Assembly (NCBI RefSeq): GCF_003264855.1
Contig: NZ_NFZS01000001.1
Location: 1,922,001-1,986,000 of the forward strand
DNA: 64,000 nucleotides
DNA from: Dyella jiangningensis
GTDB taxonomy: Bacteria; Pseudomonadota; Gammaproteobacteria; Xanthomonadales; Rhodanobacteraceae
Reading direction: 5' to 3'
Part shown: positions 15,019-21,578 of the stretch, one piece after another
Position numbering within the stretch: the first letter of the stretch is position 1
Layout of the letters: every line of letters begins with the position of its first letter
Made by a program: the position numbers and the translations under genes
The notes under the pieces: generated by a model
Told to the model about the DNA's origin: nothing
What the model saw: only the letters and a program-made list of their open reading frames with translations
Database searches by the model: none

Positions 15019-16047
15019 ATGGCCTTTTTTCCAATCTTTCTGTCGGTTGTGTACGTTGTACGCAATCAAGGTGGCGATCTTGAAGCCATTTTGAACAGCG
15101 CGACGTCGCGCTTGAATTCGCTTGCTGCGGATTACGAGTTGATCGTGGTCGACAATGCGTCGGACGACAACAGCCTTTTGGTCCTGAAAGACATTACCGG
15201 GCCAGGCGGGCTGCCCAATGTGCAAGTTTATGCGCTGACCAAGAGCGTGGACGCGGATACCGCTGCCTGGGCCGGCCTCGAGAGTGCGCTCGGCGATTTT
15301 GTCGCAGTCATTGATCCGCTTGTCGACGACATCGCCTTCCTTGCCGACATGCTCGAAAAGGCTGTCAGCGGCGCTGACGTAGTATTTGCCAATAATCGCC
15401 GGAAGCCGCGGCAGAATCTGGCCTATCGCGTTGCGTACTGGGCTTTCAATGGGCTGTACAAATTTTTCAGCGGGATACATTTGGCCAAGGAGGCGCCGCA
15501 GTATCGCCTGCTGAGCAAGCGCGTCATCAACTTCATCTTGCAGCATCCCCAGCCTGGAGTGACATATCGTCATTTGCCGGCAACGGGTGGATTTGCGCGC
15601 GCCAATATGGATTACAGCGCGGAGCCGTTGACCGCTCACCAAAAGAAGCTGGGCGAAAGCATTGATCGCGGGATGCGCCTTCTCGTTTCGACGACGCGCG
15701 CCCCCATGCGATTGGTGACAAGCCTTTCGCTGTTTGGTGCGGGAGCAAACCTGATCTATTCGGGCTATGTCGTTGCGATCGGCATATTCAAGGCGAATGT
15801 CGCGCCAGGATGGGTGAGTCTGTCGCTGCAGCAATCGGGCATGTTTTTCCTCATTTCCCTCGTCCTGCTGGTACTTGGCGAATACATTCTGCAAATGGCT
15901 GCGCTTTCGAGCGAAGGGCCGCTTTATCATGTGGCGCAGGAGTTCACGAGTGCGCGGATGACGCGCCGTGAGAAGCTCAATATCGAGGACGCCTCGGTCA
16001 CAGGCTCAACTGTCGTCTCTGGCGGTATCTCGGAGCGAAACCCCTGA
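15019..16047 (+). CDS. family 2 glycosyltransferase with C-terminal membrane anchor
   Basis: This 342-residue protein has an N-terminal GT-A domain (about 1-220) with FLSVVYVVRNQ at the first strand and YELIVVDNASDDNS as the nucleotide-binding region. Two C-terminal TM helices (about 235-260 and 270-295) follow. This layout matches bactoprenol-phosphate glycosyltransferases of the GtrB/DPM type, which load a sugar on undecaprenyl phosphate on the cytoplasmic face. Sequence similarity to classic GtrB is low, and the acceptor is inferred from topology. A Shine-Dalgarno-like GAGAGGGG lies about 8 bases before the ATG. First gene of a seven-gene, translationally coupled operon; its stop overlaps the next ATG. 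Confidence 0.8.
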   Translation: MAFFPIFLSVVYVVRNQGGDLEAILNSATSRLNSLAADYELIVVDNASDDNSLLVLKDITGPGGLPNVQVYALTKSVDADTAAWAGLESALGDFVAVIDPLVDDIAFLADMLEKAVSGADVVFANNRRKPRQNLAYRVAYWAFNGLYKFFSGIHLAKEAPQYRLLSKRVINFILQHPQPGVTYRHLPATGGFARANMDYSAEPLTAHQKKLGESIDRGMRLLVSTTRAPMRLVTSLSLFGAGANLIYSGYVVAIGIFKANVAPGWVSLSLQQSGMFFLISLVLLVLGEYILQMAALSSEGPLYHVAQEFTSARMTRREKLNIEDASVTGSTVVSGGISERNP

Positions 16048-17192
16048 TGGGGGGCGACACCGACATGTTCGACGCTGTTGTTATAGGCGGAGGGTTTTAT
16101 GGCGCGGCCATTGCCATCTACCTTTCCCAACAGCGGGAGATGAAGCGCGTCCTGCTAGTGGAGCGGGATCGCCATCTGCTGAGTCGTGCGTCCTATACCA
16201 ACCAGGCGCGCGTCCACAACGGTTACCATTATCCGCGCAGCTTTACGACGGCCTATCGAAGTCGGATCAATCTTCCGAAGTTCGTTCAGCAGTGGTCATA
16301 CGCGGTGAGCAAGGACTTCGAGAAGCTATACGCCATTGCCCGCAGGAATTCGAAAGTCACAGCCCGGCAATTCGAGCGCTTCTGTCGAGAGATTGGTGCA
16401 AGGATCGAAGTGGCTCCTAAGTCACTCCACGAGCTTTTCGACAACAAGCTTATCGAAGAGGTGTTCCTCGTTGAGGAATATGCGTTCGATACCACCCGGT
16501 TGGCCGGATGGGCCGAGCGCGAACTCGATAGCAGCGGTGTGCGAACCATTCTTGGCACGAAGGCTCTCGGAGTATCGCGCGATGTCGGGTGCGGCCTAGC
16601 CGTCGAGCTTGAGCACGGTAACGGTCTTCGGGAAGTGGTTCGTTCGCGCTATGTCTTCAACTGCGCCTATGCCGGGCTCAACCAGTTGGCGGGAGATTTT
16701 CACGGTACCCAGATGGGGTTGAAGCATGAAATCACCGAGATGGCGTTGATGCAGGTGCCTTCATCCCTGAAGAACATCGGCGTCACCGTGATGGACGGTC
16801 CGTTCTTTTCCATCATGCCTTTTCCTGCCCGTGACCTGCACACCCTTTCGCACGTGCGTTATACGCCGCATTTCAGCTGGCCGGACGAGCCCGGCGTCGA
16901 CCCTTATGACCGCCTGCGCGATTACTTGCAGGAGACACGCGTGGATCGCATGGTGCGGGACGTCCAACGATACCTGCCGGCGGTGGCGCAGGCCCAGTAC
17001 GTGGAATCGCTTTTTGAGGTGAAGACAGTGCTCGTGAAGAACGAGGGGGATGATGGCCGCCCGATTCTTTTCGAGAAACATGCCGACATTCCAGGGTGCT
17101 TTTCTATCCTTGGAGGCAAGATCGATAATATTTTTGACGTACTCGAAAAGCTCGAGATCGAAGAGTTTGCGAGCGCAAGGGGCAATTCATGA
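16047..17192 (+). CDS. FAD-dependent oxidoreductase (DAO family)
   Basis: This 381-residue cytoplasmic flavoprotein starts with the dinucleotide-binding motif VVIGGGFYGAAIAIYLS near residue 8 and the ribose-binding acid of VLLVERD. The NQARVHNGYHYPRS segment is characteristic of a D-amino-acid-oxidase-like subfamily often found in surface-polysaccharide clusters. The substrate is unknown; oxidation of an activated sugar or an amino/hydroxy acid substituent is plausible from the neighbours. The ATG overlaps the previous stop by one base (TGATG); a later in-frame ATG at 16065 (MFDAVV) is also possible. It overlaps the next gene by ATGA. Confidence 0.8.
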   Translation: MGGDTDMFDAVVIGGGFYGAAIAIYLSQQREMKRVLLVERDRHLLSRASYTNQARVHNGYHYPRSFTTAYRSRINLPKFVQQWSYAVSKDFEKLYAIARRNSKVTARQFERFCREIGARIEVAPKSLHELFDNKLIEEVFLVEEYAFDTTRLAGWAERELDSSGVRTILGTKALGVSRDVGCGLAVELEHGNGLREVVRSRYVFNCAYAGLNQLAGDFHGTQMGLKHEITEMALMQVPSSLKNIGVTVMDGPFFSIMPFPARDLHTLSHVRYTPHFSWPDEPGVDPYDRLRDYLQETRVDRMVRDVQRYLPAVAQAQYVESLFEVKTVLVKNEGDDGRPILFEKHADIPGCFSILGGKIDNIFDVLEKLEIEEFASARGNS

Positions 17193-19984: not shown

Positions 19985-20030
19985 TGGCTGCCTGGATGGA
20001 ATACGTTGAGGACATGGAGATGGAGTGGTG

Positions 20031-21578
20031 ATGACTCGAGTCGAAGGCGAACGAACCGGGCTGCTTGCACAGGAAGACCTGCTTGGCATGTCCCTCCTGA
20101 CGGTGCTGGTTTTCCTGGTCTACTCTGCTGTGCTGGTCAACAGCTTCGGTGTTCTGGATGACTACAACTTTCTGTACAACGCGATACGTCGCAACAACGA
20201 TACCGTCACCTTGCTGCTGGGGGCTGGTCGACCGCTAAATGCCTACCTGCTCGACTGGGGGTTCCGCGCTGCAGGGAGCATCGAAGGCCTGGCGCGACTG
20301 AGGGCCATAACCCTGCTAGGGTTCGCCTTGCTCGCAAGTGGCTTGTTTGTTTTTGTCAGGCGACACGGCCTGTCTTTAGTTGCTTCTTTCGCGCTGGCCG
20401 CCGGCACGGTGTTACTGCCGTCTTTTCAGGTCTATGCAGCCTGGGCGCAGCACTTCACCACGCCTTATGCCGGATTGCTGGCGTTGGTTGCAGCTTATTT
20501 GCTGAGTCTGGCCTATAGCCCTGCGGGTTCGTTGCGCATGAGCGTGGCCTGCAAGTCAGCTTTGTTGCTGACGATGGCGGTATTGATCTATCAGCCAATG
20601 GCTATGATCTTCGCCGTTGGCGTGCTGATTTCAGTTGTGACGTCCCGGCAGCCGATGCGGGAGTACGGATTTGCCCGTCTCGTCGTTACGGGAGTGGTTT
20701 TCGCTTTTGCCATGGTGGTGGGGTTTGTCGCGCTCAAGATCGGCCAGCATTACCACCCCAACGGCAGCGCGCGTTACGGGCTGGTAAGCGACTTCTCTGG
20801 TAAAGCGAAATGGTTCTTCGAGGAGCCGCTTCCCAATGCTTTGTCGTTCTTCTGGGTGCCGGTGAGCAAGTGGGGCGTGTGGGCGGTGGCTGCAGTGATG
20901 GTTCTTGGCTACGTCGGCTATGCGAGAAAACATGGCATGCGGCAGGGGGGCTATGTACTGATTGTCTCGCTGGGTGTCGTCCTCGTTTCCTATCTGCCTA
21001 ATCTCGCAACAGCAGAGAACTGGGCCTCTTATCGCTCCATCGGCGTGCTTGCGTGCGCGCTCTTCACAATTGCGGTGCTCTTGGCTTTCGTTCCTTTGGC
21101 TGGCCGGCTTGGAATGGGCGATGAAAACCGTCCATTGAACGCGAGGGTGGCTCTGCTTGCCGCCGTCTTGCTGTGCCTATCGGTGACCGCGGCGGGGCGC
21201 GTGTCTCGCTCGTTTGTTCAGCCAAATCTTATGGAAATCAATAATCTGGCCAGTCTTTTTAAAGGGCGAACGGATCAGCCCATCAGCCGTATTCTCATAA
21301 GGCCGTCATCATGGATGGATTCGGCGGCCAATCCGGTACTTTATGACGAGTTCGGGATGCAGTCCTCGCTGGATGATCATCGGGCGACCGTCATTGTGGA
21401 TCTGGCGCGCCTGAGCCTTAACCGGTTTCAGGGCGCGGAACTCGTGCCTATTGCGCACGACACGCCGCCTGGCATGGCGGTGGGTACCTCCGACATCTAC
21501 GTCGACTTTCCCGCACTCGACACGGCAGGTCGATTCCGGTCCATACGTTCGCACCTGAAAGCGCCGCTCTCGCCTTGA
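20031..21578 (+). CDS. multi-pass membrane glucosyltransferase-like protein (GtrII type)
   Basis: This 515-residue protein has about ten to eleven hydrophobic helices and a hydrophilic C-terminal domain of roughly 110 residues. Near the N-terminus the segment [13 protein letters not shown] holds the periplasmic acidic residues seen in GT-C and GtrII enzymes. ARLRAIT and [12 protein letters not shown] are further GtrII-like landmarks. Such enzymes transfer a sugar from undecaprenyl phosphate to O-antigen in the periplasm. The ATG at 20031 is preceded by GGAG at 20022-20025; two upstream GTG codons are in frame. This is the last gene of the operon and ends just before a tandem repeat. Confidence 0.72.

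Follow-up and report, generated by a model that had tools for sequence, protein, structure and literature searches.

Within a 64,000-nucleotide stretch of Dyella jiangningensis DNA (the window), seven open reading frames on the forward strand, g1 to g7 in order, occupy positions 15019 to 21578 and form a cassette that is a variant on the known gtr-like logic of glycan decoration. Base 16047 is common to g1 and g2, and overlaps of 4 nucleotides were found at the g2/g3, g3/g4, g4/g5 and g5/g6 junctions. The g4/g5 overlap holds if g5, whose longest reading frame begins at 18780, starts at the ATG at 18810, as was assumed here. g7 begins 40 nucleotides past g6 with a GTG at 20025, and a further in-frame ATG lies at 20031. 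This layout agrees with a preliminary description, made from the sequence alone, of a seven-gene same-strand cluster whose first six genes overlap (by 1–4 nucleotides) or abut. The same description had called the region poorer in GC than its flanks, and a gene-by-gene check bears this out: GC content is 0.56–0.62 in g1–g7, and GC at third codon positions (GC3) is 0.67–0.78 compared to 0.87–0.91 in five flanking genes. The composition of the cassette is foreign to the host. Low GC is not general among such cassettes, since those of relatives lie more than 2 points below their flanks in 33 of 62 cases and above them in 11 of 62. On one side the cassette is bordered by what we take to be cytochrome oxidase genes and on the other by presumed pyrG, kdsA and eno, all named from their translations. 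A promoter scan returned only one site, under the shuffle mean of 2.4. Directly past the g7 stop codon and ahead of pyrG, positions 21582 to 21654 consist of about 10.7 tandem copies of the 7-base unit AGGGCGA with 98% matches.

Protein families and conserved residues

The first gene, g1 (15019 to 16047, 342 amino acids), encodes a membrane-anchored family 2 glycosyltransferase (GT2) of the GtrB fold, with matches to PF00535 (7.4e-11) and phrog_841 (5.8e-28) and an alignment to GtrB (5eke) over residues 6–307. The fold and anchor of the GtrB-like membrane GT2 described earlier therefore stand, but key GtrB residues have been lost. According to parts of the GtrB report, D94xD96 binds the metal, R122 and R200 bind the lipid phosphate and D157 is the putative acid; mutants lose activity, and mutation at R122 or D157 stops the enzyme (PMC4728340). 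From our alignments, matches covering less than 75% of the query or containing stops were omitted. In g1, the second Asp of the DXD motif is absent in all 78 rows (the D94 position is Asp in 72 and Asn in 6) and the R122 position carries Asn in all 78. At the D157 position, 61 rows have Gln and 1 has Asp; at the R200 position, 45 have Lys, 14 Arg and 6 Leu. Judged from these rows, the altered residue pattern is conserved rather than decayed.

The second GT2, g6 (19163 to 19984, 273 amino acids), is DPMS/ArnC-like (PF00535, 6e-11; DPMS 5mlz, 2.4e-13 with a family profile) and is a probable polyprenyl-phosphate sugar loader. R151, at the R122 position, as well as D187, R193, R239 and K249 are present in 70/70 rows, and DGN replaces DXD in the same 70/70. 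R239 and K249 resemble, as we presume, the 'R..G.SK' motif of DPM1. Because g1 has lost key GtrB residues and g6 keeps the lipid-phosphate Arg, g6 appears the likelier loader of the two. Alternatively, both GT2s could be active, g1 having altered chemistry or another donor, and the cassette would then build a lipid-linked disaccharide or a pair of lipid-linked donors. The departure of g6 from DXD as well is in line with this, and g1 does not look like an enzyme in decay, being highly conserved with a new pattern that does not vary: in alignment A6 its relatives are 62–78% identical to the window's protein, with one row at 45%. A6 is one of four reduced alignments (A4, A5, A6 and A7, with 40, 33, 29 and 23 rows including the window's), hand-picked from 80, 71, 77 and 69 length-filtered relatives, respectively. 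However, the missing second Asp of DXD and the Asn at the R122 position are found in every row of g1, and part of the GtrB report shows that mutation at R122 or D157 stops that enzyme (PMC4728340), which makes two active GT2s improbable.

Three further enzymes lie between the two GT2s. g2 (16047 to 17192, 381 amino acids) is an FAD oxidoreductase of the DAO superfamily (PF01266) with GlpD and glycine oxidase as fold neighbours; a PDB profile search with g2 gave nothing at 1e-6. g3 (17189 to 17983, 264 amino acids) is an extended-SDR-like (short-chain dehydrogenase/reductase) oxidoreductase or epimerase with a fold like UDP-galactose 4-epimerase and RmlD. Its match to the Epimerase model (0.0015) is under the cut-off, GxxGxxG is kept, and the SDR motif YxxxK is replaced by YxxxR (Y109, R113) in 72/72 rows. 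g4 (17980 to 18813, 277 amino acids) is a xylose-isomerase-like TIM barrel of the ketose-3-epimerase type (PF01261, 3.1e-26; D-psicose 3-epimerase 7x7w, 1.5e-11), in which the four metal and acid-base residues E150, D184, H210 and E245 are retained in 73/73 rows. In tagatose 3-epimerase, the equivalent four residues bind the metal and move the proton adjoining the ketone. The retained quartet of g4 therefore fits the need for epimerising next to a ketone. Together with the second GT2, these are the extra sugar-type enzymes that had been noticed before.

The small protein g5 (18810 to 19166, 118 amino acids) shows four hydrophobic segments in a hydropathy scan and is an SMR/EamA protein of the ArnE/F-like kind, probably a flippase. 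It passes the cut-offs of EamA (32.3 bits, cut-off 28.2), SMR (24.7, 23.7) and TMEM234 (30.2, 30.1), and its match to ArnF (1.2e-6) is under the cut-off of that model. A GtrA identity (PF04138), which the preliminary description had proposed for this carrier, was rejected, as no GtrA model was matched at E-values up to 1. For the last gene, g7 (20025 to 21578, 517 amino acids), the proposal of a ten-helix, GtrII-related protein is supported. The hydropathy scan gives ten hydrophobic segments, and g7, itself without any Pfam or NCBIfam match, is 43% identical over 480 amino acids to a protein of locus L024 that scores 43.7 bits against PF14264 (GtrII; cut-off 30). The homologue in locus L019 also passes. 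g7 is a probable periplasmic glycosyltransferase.

A conserved six-gene unit with a variable seventh gene

Relatives of the cassette were collected by scanning a species-genome collection with g2. Of 405 pattern matches, 393 proved to be relatives, and the best 80 were kept; these loci were chosen as the most similar to g2, and counts over them are not a prevalence. In 61 of the 80 loci, g1–g6 are complete and in order. Locus L076, which has two copies, was counted as incomplete, and including the complete ordered set found there would give 62/80. This Pseudomonas locus (4573–15390) carries one complete cassette and, upstream, a partial second g3–g6 set. An alternative set was found in 5/80 loci (L015, L026, L027, L033 and L045), and a further 9/80 are truncated where the contig or locus ends, or show rearrangement, duplication or divergence. 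Recurrence of the same six genes in the same order exceeds chance, and g1–g6 form a conserved unit with a variable seventh gene, as in gtr modules. What had been described as a seven-gene operon keeps its gtr-like logic, but the unit consists of six conserved genes plus one variable gene and recurs in many genomes.

An independent check of gene pairing was made by searching for each of g1, g2, g4 and g6 in 369 genomes of the class. g2 was found in 4 (E-value 1e-30) and g1 in 3 (1e-40), every one of them also carrying g2. The fourth genome has no g1, and its g2 match, a distant relative (31%), carries a fused Gfo/Idh/MocA domain. A fusion of this kind, with the Gfo/Idh/MocA sugar-oxidoreductase domain N-terminal, lies in locus L011 (7714–9729, reverse strand). 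Among the 80 loci, g1 adjoins g2 on its upstream side without exception. g4 was found at 1e-30 in 2/369 class genomes, both carrying the module. It might be supposed that the genes are unrelated neighbours joined by chance, such as an SMR drug exporter next to enzymes of catabolism, since g5 also matches drug-exporter models and g4 resembles enzymes of free-sugar metabolism. With the order kept in 61/80 loci, the genes overlapping, and with g4 occurring only with the module among the 369 genomes, such a coincidence is hardly credible.

g6 was present in 3/369 class genomes, in one of which (G202) g1, g2 and g4 are absent. Its neighbours there are a flavoprotein of the amine-oxidase type, a STELLO-type protein and a pair of long hydrophobic proteins, one of which was scanned and matched no Pfam family. 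A cluster of this kind, at 1433–7590 of locus L133, is possibly a simpler cousin of the cassette.

In genome G324 (the same contig as L033), g1 and g2 occur with the alternative set, which consists of a GT2 with DLDLA, an aldo/keto reductase and GtrA. As this set keeps g1 and g2 and replaces the rest, loader, reductase and flippase appear to swap jointly around the g1–g2 pair.

The seventh position was examined in the 66 loci that have g1–g4 and g6. A multi-helix gene lies up to 1.3 kb past g6 in 39, between g2 and g3 in 8, and in both places in 5. The 58 multi-helix proteins fall into 22 clusters, of which cluster 8 was found in both positions; alignment A3 holds 47 of the 58 together with the window's protein. 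The g7 family itself is common to only two named loci, L019 and L024, neither of which is nearest to the window's cassette in the tree described below. The nearest cassette, L029, has an unrelated protein in this slot (BLASTP E-value 0.68). A Pfam scan of 48 seventh-slot proteins gave PMT_2 for 2, GtrII for 2, an amino-acid permease for 1 and MFS for 1. Since most match no model, their role as transferases is presumed, and the seventh-slot assignment takes in unrelated neighbours.

Insertion site and distribution

The cassette lies on an inserted stretch (14763 to 21734) between the oxidase genes and pyrG. In the 18 same-genus genomes compared, this gap is a spacer of 175–329 bp in 15 and holds other cargo in 3; G194, in which pyrG is split over two contigs, was excluded from the empty-site comparison. 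The cargo is a coupling-type protein of a type IV secretion system with a lipase-like protein in L104 (1255–5723) and a FUSC/HlyD/OEP efflux set in L105 (860–5531) and L110 (1078–5745). Presence of the cluster at the oxidase–pyrG site is due to insertion, and because three same-genus genomes carry other cargo in the same gap, the site appears to be a hot spot for insertion. No repeats that would mark both ends of the insertion were found. At an E-value of 1e-10, no g4 relative was detected in the 17 other same-genus genomes, in line with the expectation that the cluster would not be universal in the genus, and 2/197 genomes of the family had one, the window's own counted. None of coxB, coxC, pyrG, kdsA and eno was found near the cassettes of 84 other loci, which indicates that cassettes elsewhere occupy other sites.

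Carriers include Pseudomonas, Burkholderiales, Azoarcus, Methylobacter, Legionella santicrucis, Dokdonella and two Chloroflexi, as we take the 'Roseilinea' and 'Anaerolineae' records to be. The Chloroflexi g1, g2 and g6 are 65–70% identical to the window's, about as near as many proteobacterial ones. The cassettes of the Chloroflexi loci L069 and L081 are without g5 and near the proteobacterial ones in sequence. A tree built on five concatenated proteins of 65 cassettes pairs the window with Silvimonas terrae (0.975), a Rhodanobacter metagenome-assembled genome with Achromobacter (0.912), and Dokdonella immobilis with a metagenome-assembled Azoarcus genome (0.992). These cross-taxon pairs indicate repeated gains, and horizontal acquisition is the best explanation for the cassette. 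A phage origin was considered and rejected, as 50,697 phage records gave one partial match (53% of g2, 33% identity). Relatives of g2 occur in 12 of 72,556 plasmid records, all below 60% identity. Elsewhere in the window, five tRNA genes (Arg, Pro, Arg, His, Lys) at 38514 to 39137 coincide with its other GC dip (0.557).

Proposed pathway and comparison with known systems

We give a probability of about 0.5 to the reading that the locus was gained horizontally as a gtr-like cassette for glycan decoration that brings its own enzymes for sugar remodelling, and by which a lipid-linked sugar is oxidised, epimerised, reduced, flipped and attached. From gene content and conserved residues we infer that remodelling takes place on the lipid-linked sugar and in which order the steps follow, as well as the parts played by g1 and the flippase and the nature of sugar and acceptor. 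g6 would load the sugar onto polyprenyl phosphate. The GtrB-derived, membrane-anchored g1 would then work with the flavoprotein g2, which would oxidise a hydroxyl to a ketone; g4 would epimerise the carbon adjoining the ketone and g3 would subsequently reduce it. g5 would flip the remodelled lipid-linked sugar, and g7 would transfer it to a glycan of the cell surface, the probable acceptor being O-antigen or another envelope polymer. In the alternative set, its own GT2 would load the lipid, the aldo/keto reductase alone would set the stereochemistry and GtrA would flip the product. The gene swaps between the two sets make this scheme the simplest reading. Other glycan-pathway genes (clusters with examples matching Polysacc_synt_2, Glycos_transf_4, ABC_tran, Glycos_transf_1 or Polysacc_synt) were counted by hand in the stored flanks of 23/80 loci and therefore favour an envelope polymer as target; lipopolysaccharide or O-antigen is plausible.

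Remodelling might instead occur earlier, on a cytoplasmic nucleotide sugar or free sugar, with g6 (or g1) then loading the finished sugar for g5 and g7. The fold of g3 resembles that of nucleotide-sugar epimerases and reductases, and relatives of g4 act on free sugars. On the other hand, g1, whose loader residues are gone, always accompanies the oxidase g2, a pairing most easily understood if the oxidase acts on a membrane substrate, and we consider earlier remodelling the less likely course. Returning to remodelling on the lipid, we tentatively propose that g1 is a GtrB that gave up sugar loading and now serves as a docking site in the membrane that offers the polyprenyl-phosphate sugar to g2. 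With g4 and g3 it may form a machine for epimerising lipid-linked sugars that evolved apart from DprE1/DprE2, was traded among Proteobacteria and Chloroflexi, and could make an unrecognised decoration sugar.

Several observations weigh against the proposed pathway. The GtrB residues were placed on g1 by hand from pairwise and profile alignments, and since the R200 position is still Lys or Arg in 59/78 rows, lipid-phosphate binding by g1 may persist. DGN instead of DXD makes the activity of g6 itself uncertain. A conserved loop of g2 (residues 53–64) is modelled at a predicted local distance difference test score (pLDDT) below 50, and g3 combines a score under the Pfam cut-off with Arg in place of the SDR Lys. 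The putative flippase is the one gene absent in 5/80 loci. As for the last step, 14/66 loci have a multi-helix gene in neither place, some seventh-slot proteins are not transferases (the permease and the MFS protein, 1/48 each), and a test for the GT-C acidic pair, positive in 13/57 seventh-slot and 18/76 other membrane proteins, gave no separation.

With the gtrA-gtrB-gtr(type) modules of O-antigen glucosylation (GtrB structure in PMC4728340), the cassette shares a GtrB-fold membrane GT2, a small four-helix membrane protein, a last gene whose homologues match GtrII, and a conserved core with a variable putative transferase. It differs in having SMR/EamA instead of GtrA, a GtrB with key residues lost, a second GT2, three sugar-redox/epimerase enzymes, and seven genes instead of three. 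The flippase and loader recall ArnC/ArnE/ArnF of the aminoarabinose pathway, a polyprenyl-phosphate GT2 with an SMR-type flippase. However, both are weak relatives with all scores under the Arn model cut-offs, there is a single SMR gene, and no other Arn enzyme is encoded in the cluster. In the three-component pentofuranose side-chain systems of Citrobacter youngae O1/O2, Kelly et al. 2024 (PMC11127046) describe a lipid-linked donor, a flippase and a multi-helix transferase, together with an epimerase believed to act once the sugar is loaded. According to the same paper, these systems use a polyprenyl phosphoribose synthase as loader, a MATE flippase and a GalE-like SDR epimerase, families other than the GT2, SMR protein and flavoprotein/TIM-barrel/SDR set of the cassette (PMC11127046). 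In our model scans, none of the seven proteins matched polyprenyl phosphoribose synthase or MATE models.

Mycobacterial DprE1/DprE2, of the arabinose pathway, are likewise a flavoprotein and an SDR that alter a polyprenyl-phosphate sugar. An SMR-type exporter, Rv3789, has been proposed (PMC11127046). In contrast, g2 belongs to DAO (PF01266), a TIM barrel is added, and there is no phosphoribose synthase. DprE1 itself belongs to an FAD family other than DAO. Judged by titles and the openings of abstracts, with most subscription papers outside reach, no account of the six-plus-one cassette was found in the literature.

If the proposed pathway is true, the known periplasmic scheme of loading, flipping and transfer in glycan decoration would gain a further step, remodelling on the lipid, between loading and flipping. 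Kelly et al. report that a lipid-linked pentofuranose is epimerised in O-antigen side-chain systems, name candidates of the DprE1/E2 type and state that they are aware of no other epimerases in such systems (PMC11127046); further cases would be directly testable. The g1–g2 pair would provide a sequence handle on many genomes with unidentified surface sugars. The cassette also suggests a route by which surface polymers may diversify, in which the donor-making core is kept and the last transferase is exchanged.

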